A DNA stretch of 64,000 bases from Desulfovibrio desulfuricans (lineage in GTDB: Bacteria > Desulfobacterota > Desulfovibrionia > Desulfovibrionales > Desulfovibrionaceae), in NCBI RefSeq assembly GCF_004801255.1, contig NZ_CP036295.1, positions 2,442,001 through 2,506,000 of the forward strand, written 5' to 3'. Below, piece after piece: positions 5,639-36,737 of this stretch (position 1 is the first letter of the stretch; each line of letters begins with the position of its first letter). The notes under the pieces are model-generated. The model saw nothing but the letters and a program-made list of their open reading frames with translations. It was not told the origin of the DNA and searched no databases. A program made the translations under genes and the position numbers.

Positions 5639-6721
5639 ATGGCGCGCGTACTTTACGGCATTCACGGCACAGGCCACGGGCACGCCATGCGCGGCCTGAC
5701 CATAGCCCGCCGCCTTTCACGACACGAATTCCTTTTTGTGGCGGACGACGACGCCCCAAAAGTTCTTGAGCCGGAGTTTCCCGTGCGCCGCCTGCCCAAC
5801 CTGGGCACAGTGTTTAAAAACTACAAGGTGGACATGGCGGCCACCATTGCCAGGGCCGTCCCCCTGCTCTGGCGCAGGCAGCGCTATATTGACCAGGTTT
5901 CGCGCCTGATTGATGAATTCAAGCCCGACGTCTGCATGACCGACCTTGAGTATTTTGTGCCGCGTGCGGCGGAAAAGGCCGGTCTGCCCTGCCTGACGCT
6001 CGACCACCAGCACGTCATCACCTGCTGCAGGCACAACCTGCCGCCTGACATGTGGTGGGACACCTTTGTGCAGGGTCTGACCCCGCGCTATCTCTTTCGC
6101 CCCACTGCCGAAAACCTCATCATCTCCTTTTACGCGCCGCCAGTGCTGCCCCGGTACAAGGCCCGCGTGGCCCCGCCCATTCTGCGCGACAGCGTGCTGG
6201 CCCTCAACCCGCGCGACGACGGGCACGTGCTTGTGTACCAGAGCAATTCGACCCATCGCAAGCTTGTGGACTTTTTACGCGCCGCCACGCGTAAAACCTG
6301 CTATGTTTTCGGCTATGACCGCACCGAAGGGCAGGAGGACAACGTGGTCTTTATGAGCAAGAGCGAAGAGGGCTTTTTGCGCCTGCTCGAAAGTTGCTCC
6401 TATGTTGTTCAGGGCGGCGGGCACACTCTCATGGGCGAAGCCCTGCACCTGGGCAAGCCTATCCTCACCCTGCCGCTCAAGGCCATGGTGGAGCAGCGCT
6501 TTAACGCGCTGTACATCGAGCGCCTGGGCTACGGCATGCAGGCCGACATGCACACGCTCGAACCAGAGCTGCTGCGCCGATTTGAGGCCAACCTGCCCGC
6601 CTACAAGGCGGCCATCGCCGCAGGCTCGTTCTGCGGCAATGAAACTGTATTCGGCCTGGTGGACCACTTTATCCGCACCGGCTCCCTGCCGGAACACGGC
6701 AACCCCGCCGTGCAGGAATAA
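5639..6721 (+). CDS. GT-B-fold glycosyltransferase (MurG/UGT-like)
   Basis: An ATG at 5639 with AAAGGAG a few bases upstream gives 360 residues; an in-frame upstream start lacks a ribosome site. The N-terminus has the Gly-rich loop of GT-B enzymes (GIHGTGHGHAMRGL). The C-terminal Rossmann domain has the donor-binding signature VVQGGGHTLMGEALHLGKP followed by PLKAMVEQRFNA, as in MurG and UDP-glycosyltransferases. A DVCMTDLEYFVPRAAEKAGLP segment in the N-terminal domain also fits. There is no membrane segment. It is divergent from the GT2 gene with about 170 bp between them. The specific product is unknown. Confidence 0.85.
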   Translation: MARVLYGIHGTGHGHAMRGLTIARRLSRHEFLFVADDDAPKVLEPEFPVRRLPNLGTVFKNYKVDMAATIARAVPLLWRRQRYIDQVSRLIDEFKPDVCMTDLEYFVPRAAEKAGLPCLTLDHQHVITCCRHNLPPDMWWDTFVQGLTPRYLFRPTAENLIISFYAPPVLPRYKARVAPPILRDSVLALNPRDDGHVLVYQSNSTHRKLVDFLRAATRKTCYVFGYDRTEGQEDNVVFMSKSEEGFLRLLESCSYVVQGGGHTLMGEALHLGKPILTLPLKAMVEQRFNALYIERLGYGMQADMHTLEPELLRRFEANLPAYKAAIAAGSFCGNETVFGLVDHFIRTGSLPEHGNPAVQE

Positions 6722-30998: not shown

Positions 30999-31919
30999 AT
31001 GCCGTCTCGCAGTACGCCGCTGCAGCACCGCCGTACCGGTTTTTTTGGCCAGCGGCCCCTGGGGTTGGCCGCCTCGCTGGCGGCATGGCTGGCCCGCTGG
31101 CAAAACCTGCTTGGCCTCGCGCAAAACCGCTGCGTGCACTGTCTGCGCCCCTTTTCTGCCCCTGACGCCGCGCTGTACGAGTCCGCAGCTGCTCCTGCAT
31201 CTGTTTATGCGCCCATGTCCGCTCCCGCTGCCGAAACGCGGCTCTGTCCCGACTGCCTTACCCTGCTCGCCCCATACGTCGGCCCCCACTGCCCCCGTTG
31301 CGGCCTGCCGCCTGCCAACCCGCATGAGGGCAATGTGGTCTGCGGCGCCTGTTTGCAAAATCCTCCGCCGTGGAGCGGCATCGCTTTTCACGGGCTATAC
31401 AGGGGCGCCCTGCGCCATACCCTGCTGCGACTCAAATTTGACGGGCATTTGTACCTTGCACCGCTGTTGGGCGGGTTTCTTCTTGATGCCGTCGGCTGCC
31501 TGCCGCGCCCTGATGTGATAATCGCCGTGCCGCAGCACCCTGAACATCTGCGCCGCAGGGGGTATAATCAGGCGCACGAGCTGGCCAAGGCGCTGCACGG
31601 TCTTTCGGGTGTGCCGCTGGGCACGCGGATGCTTGCCCGGCCCGTGCCCGGCAAAGAACAGGAACAGCTCAACGCCATGGCACGGCGGAGCAACGTGCAG
31701 CACAGTTTTGCCGCCGAGCCCGCCGTCAACGGGCTGCGCGTGTGGCTGGTGGACGACGTCTTGACCACGGGCAGCACCATGGCCGCTGCGGCGCGGGCCC
31801 TGCTTGCAGGCGGCGCTGCGCGGGTGGATGCTGTTTTTGCAGCACGAACGCCTCTCAACAGCGCCCCGCAACCGACGGATGTGCAATCCACTCCGCCATG
31901 TCGCACAAGCACCACATGA
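30999..31919 (+). CDS. comF: ComF-family phosphoribosyltransferase-like protein
   Basis: The 306-residue product has an N-terminal zinc-ribbon region with CxxC pairs (CVHCLRPF, LCPDC, CPRCGLPP, CGACLQNPP) and a C-terminal PRTase domain with the PRPP loop VWLVDDVLTTGSTMAAAARAL. The segment HPEHLRRRGYNQAHELAKAL is a ComF hallmark. ComF proteins are linked to DNA uptake and transformation in naturally competent bacteria and are widely conserved outside them. It is the last gene of the operon at 29677-31919. A short hydrophilic tail of about 20 residues follows the PRTase domain. Confidence 0.87.
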   Translation: MPSRSTPLQHRRTGFFGQRPLGLAASLAAWLARWQNLLGLAQNRCVHCLRPFSAPDAALYESAAAPASVYAPMSAPAAETRLCPDCLTLLAPYVGPHCPRCGLPPANPHEGNVVCGACLQNPPPWSGIAFHGLYRGALRHTLLRLKFDGHLYLAPLLGGFLLDAVGCLPRPDVIIAVPQHPEHLRRRGYNQAHELAKALHGLSGVPLGTRMLARPVPGKEQEQLNAMARRSNVQHSFAAEPAVNGLRVWLVDDVLTTGSTMAAAARALLAGGAARVDAVFAARTPLNSAPQPTDVQSTPPCRTSTT

Positions 31920-32037
31920 CAAGCTCATGCTCTTGAGCTATACACAGGGCACATACACCAGCGCCTGCACCCTTTTTGCGTGCAAACCGTGTTTACCCGC
32001 CGCATACGCGGGCATGCGGGCGCAGCCAGGAGTTTCC

Positions 32038-33159
32038 ATGCCCAGCGCACACTGTTCCTGTCATCGGGGTTTTTTAAAGCACAGAACTGCCGCCGTTGCG
32101 GCACTATGGGCTTTTTTTGCCTGCCTGGTCTTTACCGCCAGCGCGCAGGCGCAGGTAACCCTGCTTGTCCCCAGCCAGCCGAGCGTTGAAGCTCCCTCAC
32201 CCCGTCCAAAGCAGGATGTCCCTGCCAAGCGTGAAGACAAAAAGGACGAAAAACGCCCGCAGGAGGCCAAGGCCGCCACGGGCAAGGCTGACCAGCCCGC
32301 CGACTCCAGCGCAAAGCAGCCGGAGCAGCCTGCTGCGGCGGACAGCAAGCCCGCGCCCAACAGCGACGCAAGCCCGGCTGAAGCCCCTGCCAAGCCGGAA
32401 CAGACCCAAGCCGCAGCACCTGCTGCAGCCTCCGCACCCGCTGAAGCCCAGATCAATGAAGAACTGGACGTGCTCATAACCATGATGCGCCCCTTTCAGT
32501 ATGAAGGGCTGGTCATGGATATGCCGCAGATGTTTGCAGTACTGCGATACGACAGCGCCACGCCCATCAAGGACGGTGTTGCGCAGCCCGAACGGCGCGA
32601 CCTGCTGGGGGACCTGGAAGAAATACGCTACCTCAACCAGAAGGCCTGGGGAGCCAATGTGGCTCTGACCAAACCCGGACTTTACCAGTTTATCATCGAA
32701 GGACGCCCCTGGTGGGATGCTGCGCACGGACGTTTTTTGCAGCACTATGTCAAAACCACGCTTCCGGTTTACGGCGTTGAACGCGGCTGGAGCCTGCCTG
32801 TGGGCCAGCGCTTTGAAATTGTTCCGCTTGCACGCCCGTTTGGGCTCACTGCACCCGCCATGTTTTCGGGCGTGGTGCTTATGGACGGCAAGCCGCTGCC
32901 CGCCGCCTCTGTGCGCATGGCGCGCATAAATACCGAAAAACGCTCCGTGCCGACCTCATGGCATGAGGATATCGCGGCCCGCACCAACAACAAGGGCGAA
33001 TTTGCCTTTGTGCTCAACCAGCCCGGCTGGTGGTGCTGCATGGCCAGCATACCCGGCGACCCGCTTAAAGGCCCCGACGGCCAGCCCAAGCCCCTGCAGC
33101 TTGGGGCGCTGTTCTGGCTGTACGTGGACAGCCCCGCGAGCGAAACCCGCAAGCGTTAG
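32038..33159 (+). CDS. Periplasmic DUF4198-like protein with an Ala/Pro/Lys-rich linker
   Basis: CAGGAG lies 5 nt before the ATG at 32038, giving 373 residues. A signal peptide runs to about residue 40 (AALWAFFACLVFTASAQA). Then comes a low-complexity linker of about 100 residues rich in Ala, Pro, Lys, Glu and Gln (TonB-like composition). The C-terminal domain (about 140-373) has the features of DUF4198 proteins: a predicted beta-rich fold, FQYEGLVMDMPQMFAVLRYD, GLYQFIIEGRPWWD and GEFAFVLNQPGWWCCMAS. DUF4198 proteins are often linked to nickel or cobalt uptake; that role here is inference. The gene stands alone before the repeat block. Confidence 0.7.
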   Translation: MPSAHCSCHRGFLKHRTAAVAALWAFFACLVFTASAQAQVTLLVPSQPSVEAPSPRPKQDVPAKREDKKDEKRPQEAKAATGKADQPADSSAKQPEQPAAADSKPAPNSDASPAEAPAKPEQTQAAAPAAASAPAEAQINEELDVLITMMRPFQYEGLVMDMPQMFAVLRYDSATPIKDGVAQPERRDLLGDLEEIRYLNQKAWGANVALTKPGLYQFIIEGRPWWDAAHGRFLQHYVKTTLPVYGVERGWSLPVGQRFEIVPLARPFGLTAPAMFSGVVLMDGKPLPAASVRMARINTEKRSVPTSWHEDIAARTNNKGEFAFVLNQPGWWCCMASIPGDPLKGPDGQPKPLQLGALFWLYVDSPASETRKR

Positions 33160-33239
33160 GTCGCCCCTGCCTTCGCAAATTTCCCCGGTTGCACCGCTGC
33201 AGCCGGGGTTTTTGTTTTTTTGCGCCTATGCAGCGAGCC

Positions 33240-33605
33240 GTTATTTGAGTTTGCTGCCCTGCGGGCACGCTATATCGCCCTCCGGCGAAGTTGGGGACGC
33301 CTGCTGGGCGAGCTGTTTTCGCCTGCGCGGCGGTCGTTATTTGAGTTTTCTGCCCTGCGGGCACGCTATTTCGCCCTCCGGCGAAGTTTGGGACGCCTGC
33401 GCGGCGGGCTGTTTTCGCCTGCGCGGCGGTCGTTATTTGAGTTTTCTGCCCTGCGGGCACGCTATATCGCCCTCCGGCGAAGTTGGGGACGCCTGCTGGG
33501 CGAGCTGTTTTCGCCTGCGCGGCGGTCGTTATTTGAGTTTTCTGCCCTGCGGGCACAGGGTTTCGCCCTCCGGCGAAGTTTGGGACGCCTGCGCGGCGCA
33601 CGGCA
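33240..33605. repeat. Four tandem copies of a 96-bp hairpin-rich unit in ABAB order
   Basis: Units begin at 33240, 33336, 33432 and 33528, exactly 96 bp apart; the fourth is cut at about 33600. Units 1 and 3 share one variant (ATATCGCC..., GGGGACGCCTGCTGGGCGAG) and units 2 and 4 another (TTTCGCC..., TTGGGACGCCTGCGCGGCG), so a 192-bp dimer was duplicated. Each unit holds three short GC hairpins: TGCCC-TGC-GGGCA, TCGCC-CTCC-GGCGA and CGCC-TGCGC-GGCG. Because 96 is a multiple of three, several reading frames stay open through the array; I regard those as accidental. The array resembles REP-like elements and follows the DUF4198-like gene by 80 bp. Confidence 0.85.
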
Positions 33606-33984
33606 AGGCGGGGCCGGTTATGGGGCTGCGCCCCCTGCGCGGCCCCCCTTGCATCCCCCCCGAACCACCCCCCTTGAGGTTTTCAATTACCATAGCTTGA
33701 CGAGGGCACGCGTCCTGTGCTGCGGGAGCTTCCTTCCCTCGCTTTGCTCGCTCAGGCGATCTCCCTCCGCGACGCGTAAATGCCAGAGTACGCTTTCACT
33801 TCGAATCAGATTCCGCTTCAGCCGAATACCGTTGATCGGTTTGATTACTGCAAGTGAACTTTGTACCCGCTCCTGCAGAAACTATTTCAACTACATGATA
33901 AATTTCACTAAAAATACAAAATCAGTGTAACTAAGCGTCACGGTTACGGCAATTCAGCGCTCCGTTCAGCCACGATCAAAGGGC
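33606..33984. other. Non-coding spacer between the two repeat arrays
   Basis: It starts GC-rich with a small GGGGC-TGC-GCCCC hairpin near 33620 and runs of C, then becomes AT-richer toward 33900. No frame with a ribosome site is credible. It contains no obvious repeat of the flanking units. Confidence 0.5.
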
Positions 33985-35270
33985 TTACCCTCCCCCCGCC
34001 GCCGCTGACTTCTTACATGCTTTTGCCTTTCTTGCTTTCTTGCCTTTTCTACCTCACCCACCATGCCGTCCAACGTACCGATCGTTCACTTGTCTTTTCC
34101 GTCTCGCCCGCCATCAAAAGCAGGTCGTGGCGTCGCCTTCCTTAAACTCGCTGAAGCGAAGCGGAGGCGATGGCTGGTGTTGGGCTATTTGCAAAATACG
34201 TATTTTCCCGGCCTGACAAGGAAACGTCGCGTTTTTGAGCGCAGCGTACTCGTGTACGTGAGCATCAAAAACGCGACGTTGACGCCGTCAGGACGAAAAA
34301 GACGGGTTTGCGTAAATCAGCCCGACGGGCTCACCCACCCCCGCCGCCGCCAAGCTCTTACATGCTTTTGCCTCTTGCTCTCTTGCCTTTTCTACTTCGC
34401 CCACTCCGTCAGCCCCGGCTGCATTATGCCTTTGCGACATCCTTGGTCGCAGCAGCCAGAATCAGGCGGATAGCGTATGCGTCAAAAATTCTTTCACCAT
34501 CAAAAGCAGGTCGTCGAGCCGCCTTCCTTAAACTCGCTGAAGCGAAGCGGAAGCGATGGCTGGTGTTGGGCTATTTGCAAAATACGTATTTTCCCGGCCT
34601 GACAAGGAAACGTCGCGTTTTTGAGCGCAGCGTACTCGTGTACGTGAGCATCAAAAACGCGACGTTGACGCCGTCAGGGCGAAAAAGACGGGTTTGCGTA
34701 AATCAGCCCGACGGGCTCACCCACCCCGCCGCCGCTAACCTCTTACATGCTTTTGCCTCTTGCTCTCTTGACTTTTCTACTTCGCCCACTCCGTCAGCCC
34801 CGGCTGCATTTTGCCTTTGCGACATCCTTCATCGCGGCAGCCAGAATCAGGCGGATAGCCACCGCGTCAGACCATCCTTTCACCATCAAAAGCAGGTCGT
34901 CGAGCCGCCTTCCTTAAACTCGCTGAAGCGAAGCGGAAGCGATGGCTGGTGTTGGGCTATTTGCAAAATACGTATTTTCCCGGCCTGACAAGGAAACGTC
35001 GCGTTTTTGAGCGCAGCGTACTCGTGTACGTGAGCATCAAAAATGCGACGTTGACGCCGTCAGGGCGAAAAAGACGGGTTTGCGTAAATCAGCCCGACGG
35101 GCTCACCCACCCCCGCCGCCGCTAACCTCTTACATTCTTTTGCCTTTCTTGCTTTCTTGCCTTTTCTACCTCACCCATCCCAGCCAGCCCCGGCTGCATT
35201 TTGCCTTTGCTGACATCCTTGATCGCAGCAGCCAGAATCAGGCAGATAGCGTATGCGTCAGAAAATTCGT
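33985..35270. repeat. 386-bp tandem repeat: three full copies plus a partial leading copy
   Basis: Full copies begin at 34113, 34499 and 34885 (spacing exactly 386 bp) and end at about 35270, 28 bp before the stop codon of the response-regulator gene. The tail of an earlier copy is visible at about 33985-34110. The first half of each unit is nearly invariant, the second (C/T-rich) half more variable. 386 is not a multiple of three, so any reading frame shifts at each copy, which argues against one repetitive protein. Each copy has a 14-bp palindrome and a long hairpin (separate entry). No transposase, terminal repeats or target duplications are visible. Confidence 0.9.
34193..34292. other. 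Structured core of the 386-bp repeat (first copy): palindrome plus long hairpin
   Basis: AAAATACGTATTTT (34193-34206) is a perfect 14-bp palindrome. Six bases further begins a hairpin whose main stem is a perfect 16-bp inverted repeat, AACGTCGCGTTTTTGA (34223-34238) with TCAAAAACGCGACGTT (34265-34280). The loop contains a smaller CGTAC-TCGT-GTACG stem, and CCTGAC/GTCAGG arms extend the base. The same elements lie 386 and 772 bp downstream. In the third copy one stem base changes C to T, which turns a G-C into a G-U pair and keeps the stem. Confidence 0.8.
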
Positions 35271-35297: not shown

Positions 35298-36659
35298 CTA
35301 CTTTCCCTCGCCCAGCTTGGCCAGCAGCGTCTTGCGATTGATCCCCAGCCTGCGGGCGGCCTCGCTCTTGTTGCCGCCCACCTGGGCCAGCGTGTCGGCC
35401 ACCGCCATGCGCTCGATTTCTTCAAGCGTCATATTGGCAAAATCCACCCGCGCTGCCGCCGCGCTCTCTGCCTCCTGACCAACGATAGTGGGCGGTAGTT
35501 CACGCTCGCTGATATAATCCCCCACCAGCAAAACCACAGCCCGTTCGACGGCATTTTCCAGCTCGCGCACATTGCCCGGCCACGAATGCTTCAGCAGACG
35601 ATCCATGGCGGCAGGCGTAAATCCCTTGACCGCCTTGCCGTTGCGCTCGGCAAACTGCTTCAAAAAGTGCATGGCCAGCAGGGGAATGTCCTCCCCACGC
35701 TCACGCAGAGGCGGCAGTTGCAGGGCAACCACATTGAGCCGGTAGAAGAGGTCCTGCCTAAACCGGCCCTCCTCCACCTCGCGGGCTAGATCCTTGTTGG
35801 TGGCCGCCAGAATGCGCACATCCACCCGCACGGTCTGGTCGCCGCCCACGCGCTGCAGCTCGCGCTCCTGAATGACGCGCAGCAGTTTGACCTGCATGGA
35901 CAAGGGGATTTCGCCTATTTCGTCCAGAAATATCGTACCTTTGTCCGCCGCCAAAAAGCGCCCCTCGCGGCGTTTTTCCGCCCCGGTAAACGCACCCTTT
36001 TCGTGCCCGAACAGCTCCGACTCCAGCAGGGTTTCGGTAAGGGCCGCGCAGTTTACCGCCACATACGGGCCGGAGCGCCTGTTGCTGTTGGCGTGGATGA
36101 GCCTGGCCACAACCTCCTTGCCGGTGCCAGATTCACCAGTGATGAGCACCGTGGCCTCCGAGGGCGCGATGGCCGAGACAAGCTCGAGCATCTGCCGCAT
36201 GGCCGGGCTTTGCCCGATGACGTTGCGGGCGTCCATGCCCTGCGCCAGCTCGTGCCGCAGGGTGCGCACCTCGTGCCGCAGGCTGGCGTGGTCAAGCGCC
36301 CGCTCAATGGCAAGCTTGAGGGCGTCAAAAGCCAGGGGCTTGGTAAGGTAATCGTACGCCCCGGCCTTGAGCGCCTCAACCGCGCTCGAAACGTCCGAAT
36401 AGGCCGTCATGATAAGGATGGGAATGGCGGGATTGTACGCCTTGACGGCGCGCGTGGCCTCAATGCCGCTCATGCCGCCCATGCGCACATCCATGAGGAT
36501 AAGGTCAAAGGGGCGCTGGCGGCACAGCTCCAGCGCCTCCTCGCCGCTGGCGGCTCCGGTAGGGGTGTAGCCCCACTCTTCAAGCAGGGCTCGCAGCATT
36601 TCGCGGTGGTTGCGGTCGTCGTCCACGACCAGCAGATGTATGGCTGTATGTGCGGTCAT
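35298..36659 (-). CDS. Sigma-54-dependent response regulator, NtrC/ZraR type
   Basis: Start 36659 (AAGGA 8 nt upstream) gives 453 residues; a TTG six codons earlier is less likely. The receiver domain has VVDDD, the phospho-acceptor Asp in LILMDVRMGG, the Thr in LIMTAYS and the Lys in YLTKPL. The AAA+ domain has GESGTGKE (Walker A), the sigma-54-contacting GAFTGA loop in ELFGHEKGAFTGA, GTIFLDEIGEIP (Walker B) and the arginine-finger region. A Fis-type helix-turn-helix ends the protein (GNKSEAARRLGINRKTLLAKL). It pairs with the kinase gene just upstream, 78 bp away. The divergent sigma-54 promoter at 38932 is a natural target. ZraR/HydG is the closest family match by context. Confidence 0.9.
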   Translation of the reverse strand: MTAHTAIHLLVVDDDRNHREMLRALLEEWGYTPTGAASGEEALELCRQRPFDLILMDVRMGGMSGIEATRAVKAYNPAIPILIMTAYSDVSSAVEALKAGAYDYLTKPLAFDALKLAIERALDHASLRHEVRTLRHELAQGMDARNVIGQSPAMRQMLELVSAIAPSEATVLITGESGTGKEVVARLIHANSNRRSGPYVAVNCAALTETLLESELFGHEKGAFTGAEKRREGRFLAADKGTIFLDEIGEIPLSMQVKLLRVIQERELQRVGGDQTVRVDVRILAATNKDLAREVEEGRFRQDLFYRLNVVALQLPPLRERGEDIPLLAMHFLKQFAERNGKAVKGFTPAAMDRLLKHSWPGNVRELENAVERAVVLLVGDYISERELPPTIVGQEAESAAAARVDFANMTLEEIERMAVADTLAQVGGNKSEAARRLGINRKTLLAKLGEGK

Positions 36660-36737
36660 TATTCTGTCCTTGGGCAAACATCGGGGCGGGTTGGCGCACC
36701 AAAAATTTCGAGGCTATGGGGCAGGCGTGCCATCCGC

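Follow-up and report, generated by a model that had tools for sequence, protein, structure and literature searches.

A tandem array of a dispersed hairpin-forming repeat behind a response-regulator gene of Desulfovibrio desulfuricans

The repeat array and its neighbours

The window analysed here is a 64,000-nucleotide stretch of the Desulfovibrio desulfuricans genome, which is a single contig of 3.25 Mb. It contains a tandem repeat array flanked by two convergent genes, both assigned by Pfam. On one side lies the gene of a DUF4198 protein (31999–33159, plus strand; the longest open reading frame starts at 31804). On the other side lies the gene of a ZraR-like, sigma-54-dependent response regulator (35298–36677, minus strand). 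The TAG stop of the latter is located ∼262–263 nt before the first conserved core of the array, and transcription of the gene would head into the array. In line with the initial annotation, no mobility gene was recognised among the three neighbours scanned, the DUF4198 protein and a two-component pair.

Tandem Repeats Finder placed the 386-bp units at 34111–35266, with 3.0 copies, 94% matches and a score of 2034, far beyond chance. The units span 34111–34496, 34497–34882 and 34883–35268; all are on the minus strand, which is their gene-sense orientation. The three copies and the 386-bp spacing of the initial annotation were recovered, and its start positions (34113, 34499 and 34885) need shifting by 2 bp. 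The hairpin-forming parts of the units are located at 34172–34325, 34558–34711 and 34944–35097, and the conserved core GCTCACGTAC-nnn-AGTACGCTGCGCT is located at 34238–34263, 34624–34649 and 35010–35035, again on the minus strand. Covariance model R1 (described below), whose own sequences included units of the same genome, gave 107.2 bits for unit 1 (34191–34307, minus strand), 106.8 bits for unit 2 and 103.5 bits for unit 3.

Over the first 230 bp, the pairwise identity of the copies is 97.4–99.6%, in agreement with the near-identity described for the first half of the unit. The palindrome and the hairpin with 16-bp arms are present in each of the three units; AAAATACGTATTTT and the left arm AACGTCGCGTTTTTGA occupy identical unit positions in all of them. 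A C-to-T change does occur in the stem of the third unit, but it retains a G-U pair, as proposed, only in the fold of the plus strand; on the minus strand it is an A-C mismatch. Unit 1 folds beyond its shuffles, with z values of −4.49 on the plus strand and −2.42 on the minus strand. The partial leading copy also stands, at 33981–34061 on the plus strand (unit positions 217–294, 85%). The 386-bp unit is unlikely to encode a repetitive protein, and Rfam gave no match in the window at the gathering score.

The 386-bp array (C) is one part of a larger arrangement. At the DUF4198 end, Tandem Repeats Finder and comparison of loci defined a second array, A (33239–33598), with a period of 96 and 3.8 copies; region B (33600–33984) separates A from C, and parts of it were found again at other array loci. 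Together with its edges, this part of the window (33219–33984) is 90.6% alike to locus L031. By eye, array A holds several short GC-rich inverted repeats, and region B resembles a second long palindrome (ACGCGTC...GACGCGT).

The first ∼230 bp of the unit occur 22 times in the genome, in eight groups of 2–4 copies (the window counted) and one single copy. The search gave 31 matches in total: besides the 22 first-half copies there are three partial pieces, and the hairpin is echoed six times on the opposite strand. Because the genome is a single contig with 19 more first-half copies outside the window, an assembly artefact is unlikely. At the group loci L031–L037, the A, B and C stretches were found again in the same relative orientation; they are interleaved at L035–L037, and the A match is weaker at L034. 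Loci L039 and L040 have partial copies only, and at L039 region B adjoins a partial C hairpin. When 46 genomes were searched with the neighbouring gene as query, none of the five best loci proved syntenic, and no empty counterpart of the window was seen among them.

In each of the 11 loci inspected in this genome (the window and L031–L040; open reading frame lists assessed by eye), the C end is turned towards the 3′ terminus of a gene or of an rRNA operon. The first core lies 263 nt behind the stop codon in the window, and 109, 121, 150, 123 and 100 nt behind it at L031, L032, L033, L034 and L038, respectively. At the three rRNA operons (L035–L037), it lies 300–366 nt behind the 5S gene. Five groups are located at 0.50–1.19 Mb on one strand and three at 2.37–2.74 Mb on the other, as if replication-polarised; three single or partial copies deviate from this pattern. 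At the gathering score, Rfam detected only rRNA and tRNA in 10 loci of this genome and 19 other loci.

Structure and covariation of the hairpin

A point that the initial annotation did not anticipate is that the essential unit is a hairpin of ∼140–150 nt around the core and not the 386-bp repeat. Using the core to find copies, we collected 37 distinct hairpins, in gene-sense orientation, from Desulfovibrio loci and related ones, and 34 of them were aligned (without L038, L105 and L142). The 58-pair reference structure is the fold of the first row of the alignment, a choice that favours the structure in the slid control. Double changes were observed in 25 of the 58 pairs, compared to 17.6 ± 1.8 in shuffles, a number reached by 1 of 500. 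The number of double-change cells is 163, compared to 48.6 ± 5.7 in shuffles (reached by none of 500) and 25–43 when the structure was slid. The share of paired cells is 92.0%, compared to 83.5%. Further pair types show no excess over shuffles, 452 of 500 reaching the observed number. Unaided, RNAalifold predicted 44 pairs, 20 of them with double changes. The stems therefore passed the fold-and-covariation check that had been suggested for them, and the hairpin structure is real.

The pairs of the apical core are invariant in the alignment; this is partly built in, the copies having been found by their core. Elsewhere the core covaries, as CATAC/GTATG in genome G372. The arms vary from copy to copy, yet they pair with their own partner. 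With element types assigned by sequence motifs, every type has higher whole-arm scores for own than for crossed partners. When only the outer 24 nt are compared, the own partner scores above all others in 24/35 alpha-type, 2/55 gamma-type and 4/27 other elements. In the variable stem (alignment A1, columns 48–57), subfamilies differ wholesale with few G-U intermediates, which hints that one arm was copied from the other. A Pseudomonas variant (L108, L118, L159 and L174) carries an extra ∼62 bp, measured by eye, in the 3′ arm.

Taxonomic spread and known palindromic repeats

A search of named genomes with the pattern AGCRCAGCGTACTNNNGTACGTGAGC located the core in at least 119 stretches. These include at least 59 from Gammaproteobacteria (at least 52 Pseudomonadales and at least 4 Enterobacterales), at least 43 from Alphaproteobacteria, at least 12 from Desulfobacterota or bins named Deltaproteobacteria, and at least 5 unplaced. 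Among the matches listed, 113 of the 119 stretches have a single core, mostly with a single match shown. Of 41 alpha-type cores, 39 are from Alphaproteobacteria and 2 are unplaced. The core in other bacterial classes goes beyond the initial annotation, as do the dispersal of the copies, the A-B-C mosaic and the facing of gene 3′ ends.

The distribution is patchy. The proposed search of related genomes returned unit matches in 8 of 61 genomes (the source and 60 relatives), all 8 from one genus, the source included. The core was found in 3/297 genomes of the phylum (all of one genus, source genome included), in 4/114 of the class of a Pseudomonas (≤3 mismatches allowed, one match marginal), in 3/59 of the order of Ewingella and in 1/96 of the class of a Rhizobium, this one being the centre itself; the centre genome is counted each time, pattern strictness differed between samples, and diverged cores would escape. 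The reversed control pattern gave zero matches in all samples. In the viral collection the core pattern matched two contigs; a gamma-type query on plasmids and the window unit against phages and plasmids gave no match. An rRNA operon of an Arsenophonus genome (L123, 5863–6419) has a core at 6308–6333, between its tRNAs and its 23S gene.

The objection foreseen in the initial annotation, that the unit might belong to a known repeat family, holds only in part: Rfam has no matching family, but one known repeat may be a distant relative. ERIC (also IRU or RU-1, 127 bp) is an imperfect palindrome that forms one long hairpin; the present element, at ∼140–150 nt, is alike. The skeleton GCTGCGTTG...TCAC-nTAC-nnnn-GTAn-GCT...CCTTG is common to the Pseudomonas-type element and the ERIC sequence given in PMC2759123. 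This regular expression, written after ERIC had been seen, matched 0 of 200000 shuffles. A single pairwise alignment to ERIC scored 30, compared to 21.1 ± 4.2 in 2000 shuffles, with a shuffle maximum of 41, and carries little conviction. In ERIC, too, one strand folds better, the opposite of the printed one (−61.8 versus −45.2). ERIC is described from Enterobacteriaceae and Vibrionaceae (PMC10969869), and its copies reportedly end in TA and show duplication of the target (PMC2229807). Different from ERIC, the present element occurs in other classes and its termini vary; no more than 6/71 palindromes have TA outermost.

Covariance model R1 was built from 43 elements, 31 of the gamma motif (chosen from 44) and 12 others. 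The former comprise 27 from Pseudomonas, 3 from Desulfovibrio and one from another deltaproteobacterial bin, none being enterobacterial; the latter are from the source genome, its genus or named Desulfovibrio-type loci. In 63.9 kb of E. coli sequence, R1 detected copies at nuoL-nuoM (E 1.4e-5), at pyrH-frr in two strains (6e-5 and 2e-4) and at ffh-rpsP of K-12 (7e-4). The E. coli ERIC copy was hit weakly, at the correct place, with 16.4 bits and an E-value of 0.012; in an unfiltered search of 6.1 kb it gave 16.3 bits and an E-value of 0.0012, the next best match being 7.8 bits, and these E-values are rough. A sequence-only profile, without structure, reported nothing on ERIC. A loose core pattern had no match in E. 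coli and other enterobacterial loci, where the covariance model found the E. coli copies.

At least 80% of the nuoL-nuoM spacer with the element is present in 709 of 5426 E. coli genomes. We considered this spacer as a clean insertion and rejected it; the sole alternative spacer read differs wholesale. A stretch resembling the nuo element lies near pheM-pheS in E. coli (loci L315/L316, L317, L319 and L321 hold related elements), and the Ewingella element is matched in part in 3375 of 5426 E. coli genomes. Taken together, common descent of the present element with ERIC is about evenly balanced, and the element is possibly an ERIC relative outside the reported range of ERIC.

YPAL (RU-2), according to a 2006 paper, reportedly inserts close behind stop codons. 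These Yersinia palindromic sequences of 168 bp are mobile and their termini are not TA (PMC2229807); the one copy printed in PMC2759123 (Table 1b) is without the shared skeleton by regular expression. Nor was the skeleton found in RU-3. The REP/BIME palindromes with RAYT are intergenic, located at gene ends and often supply the stop codon (PMC3733652). However, REPs are 20–40 bp in size with GTAG or CGTC tags, and the present element has no link to a Y1 transposase. CIR, the Caulobacter CcrM-associated intergenic repeats of ∼110 bp, are alphaproteobacterial, intergenic and similar in size (PMC2229807). CIR have conserved GANTC, whereas the alpha-type elements contain no more of it than shuffles do (19 sites in 42 elements, compared to 21.8 ± 4.5). 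By description alone, we also compared R178 of Pseudomonas fluorescens and the rhizobial RIME1. R178 is 101 bp with an 11-bp internal inverted repeat and 9–28 copies per strain, and the P. fluorescens repeats of the same paper show a tail-to-tail bias (PMC2718517); RIME are rhizobial intergenic repeats (PMC2573895).

Placement, mobility and the choice between explanations

The element is placed and oriented with respect to genes. Among the 88 elements with enough flank (open reading frames called by length alone), 48 have a sense-strand reading frame end 45–60 nt upstream of the core, mostly at 56–59 nt; the value for random positions is 0.69%. Four others have an end at 61–120 nt and 36 have none within 120 nt. 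The Desulfovibrio loci depart from a spacing of 57 nt, their cores lying 100–263 nt from the stop of protein genes and 300–366 nt from the 5S gene. Within 75 nt, gene ends are found on the sense side only in 39 elements, on both sides in 9, on the antisense side only in 0 and on neither in 40. In the alpha types, the stop codon is often located at the hairpin foot. On two Shinella plasmids (L287 and L288), the element spans the 140–141 bp between two convergent stops; both stops are TAG, lie inside the palindrome and are supplied by the element. On a third plasmid (L294) the second gene reads further. The L288 gene has three orthologues that lack the element, and these end in TGA (read in 3 of 21 records). 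Two of the three E. coli copies found are reversed, those at pyrH-frr and nuoL-nuoM being antisense to their operons; the ffh-rpsP copy is sense and begins 2 nt past the ffh stop.

All the filled and empty sites come from alpha-type elements. Five of seven records were read for A. vitis-type plasmids, which come from Allorhizobium ampelinum and A. vitis. The site reads AAAATCTGA-CCGTTTG when empty (L296 and L298) and AAAATCTGA-[hairpin]-ACCGTTTG when filled (L291 and L297), with clean junctions; L299 is empty too, and more divergent. Because the same site is both filled and empty, the alpha-type element moves. In Agrobacterium, the gene is present in 37 of 39 genomes; the element is present in 3 of the 30 loci read and missing in 27. 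In the filled loci it lies between the stop codon and an intrinsic terminator, which is kept downstream. For the Desulfovibrio type, it is the dispersal alone that suggests mobility.

At the A. vitis site any duplication is at most about 1 bp, and no target-site duplication was established. TA is outermost in 8.5% of the palindromes versus 2.5% inside the arms (p 0.009), so it is enriched but not the rule; the flanks themselves are uninformative, TA (11/45), AT (14), GC (12) and CG (10) being alike. We also considered L108, with two inverted copies 1.7 kb apart, as a transposon and rejected it, the copies flanking what appears by eye to be a rhomboid protease gene.

Each unit of the window probably holds one copy of a non-autonomous, MITE-like palindromic mobile element. 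Of the readings first offered, the non-autonomous repeat fits best, the structured character is borne out by covariation, and the protein-binding array found no support. The finding is a palindrome of the MITE/ERIC kind with an unusually wide taxonomic spread, here tandem and set in a mosaic, and not a new kind of system. A single ancient palindromic mobile superfamily, with ERIC as one branch, may span the Alpha-, Gamma- and Deltaproteobacteria, its apex conserved, its ends free and its insertion at stop codons mediated by a strand-specific enzyme acting on the folded apex; we put this forward tentatively, as somewhat doubtful. Because the E. coli copies are reversed, our confidence in both the mobile-element and the superfamily readings is slightly lowered.

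As a mobile element, it would move in trans through an enzyme recognising the folded apical core on one strand and tolerating any arms that pair. Copies would persist where insertion behind a stop codon is harmless; there, the element could be transcribed as a 3′-UTR hairpin and, as has been described for ERIC, might influence how stable the mRNA is. In the lineage of the window, the element and its flanking DNA may have been amplified by tandem duplication within the larger A-B-C mosaic, which now sits behind the response-regulator gene.

The most serious alternative, although an unlikely one, is a host regulatory RNA, a 3′-UTR hairpin (terminator, stabiliser or RNase target) selected at each gene and not mobile. 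The strong covariation of the stems, the orientation bias among the 88 elements and, in Agrobacterium, the location after the stop codon and before the terminator would all suit such an RNA. So would transcription in Thalassospira lucentensis, where putative small RNAs with the core are listed (PMC6413936, Table 5), predicted and unverified by their authors; they suggest sense-direction transcription of the element. Among the papers listed for the sequence, this seems to be the only one with the hairpin, the other 14 having been judged by title. The patchy distribution given above and the orthologous sites both filled and empty speak against selection at each gene.

The strand that folds better bears on the same alternative. 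In counts that cover related and so not independent elements, this strand is antisense to the gene in 47 of 48 alpha-type elements, by a mean of 13 kcal/mol; antisense and sense fold better in 27 and 20 gamma-type elements and in 23 and 8 Desulfovibrio-type elements, respectively. G-U-type exceptions favour antisense over sense in 34 versus 4 alpha-type and 16 versus 4 gamma-type elements; in the Desulfovibrio type, to which the window belongs, they are not antisense-biased (8 versus 11), which fits a regulatory RNA. This tally is limited to exceptions in well-kept pairs, since a tally of all mismatches mixed in fixed internal loops. The alpha-type bias is the opposite of what mRNA selection would leave. 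For the alpha types at least, the antisense-favouring folds and mismatches speak against the view that selection has acted chiefly on how the sense mRNA folds, and they argue for a folded antisense strand (DNA or RNA). One single strand of the core hairpin reads AGCGCAGCGTAC...GTACGTGAGC and is a candidate for folded-strand recognition.

It is very improbable that the element belongs to a REP/TIRtron system, with a RAYT-type (Y1) transposase as the moving enzyme. The palindromes of such a system likewise lie at gene 3′ ends with element-supplied stops (PMC3733652), and Y1 genes are present in 6 of the 14 bearing genomes; however, Y1_Tnp is missing from the other 8, source genome included, and none of 22 Y1 loci (1.7–3.4 kb each) has a core beside the Y1 gene. 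Still less probable is an array to which a chromosomal or regulatory protein binds. Tandem copies with a near-invariant core would suit it, but a protein that binds the duplex would not need the base-pair covariation seen in the arms, and most stretches among the matches listed hold one core, as noted above. The sites of integrons, attC, are hairpins behind a stop codon with a folded bottom strand; the element resembles them in position, orientation and antisense-strand fold, but an attC-like site of an integron-type system is the least probable explanation, as 0 of 16 genomes has an integron integrase over the cut-off, the conserved part is the apex and not the base, and the A. vitis element moved without a gene. 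Weaker matches to the integron-integrase model occur in all 16 genomes and all 14 controls and are presumably other tyrosine recombinases. Reverse transcriptase is present in 4 of 16 genomes, source genome included. Y1 transposase, integron integrase and reverse transcriptase do not fit as the moving enzyme.

ERIC is widely used in strain typing. For the transposases moving such repeats there was as yet no experimental support, according to a 2007 review (PMC2229807). A family with an ERIC-like skeleton, filled and empty sites, a fixed apex and free arms offers comparative material for finding the enzyme, and a means of testing whether the folded strand is its substrate. It is also a warning that hairpins scattered at the ends of genes in Desulfovibrio, Pseudomonas and rhizobia are not necessarily host regulatory RNAs. 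If the superfamily reading were true, these elements would be built inside-out compared to ordinary MITEs, with an apical hairpin, including a mismatch and a bulge, as the conserved part.
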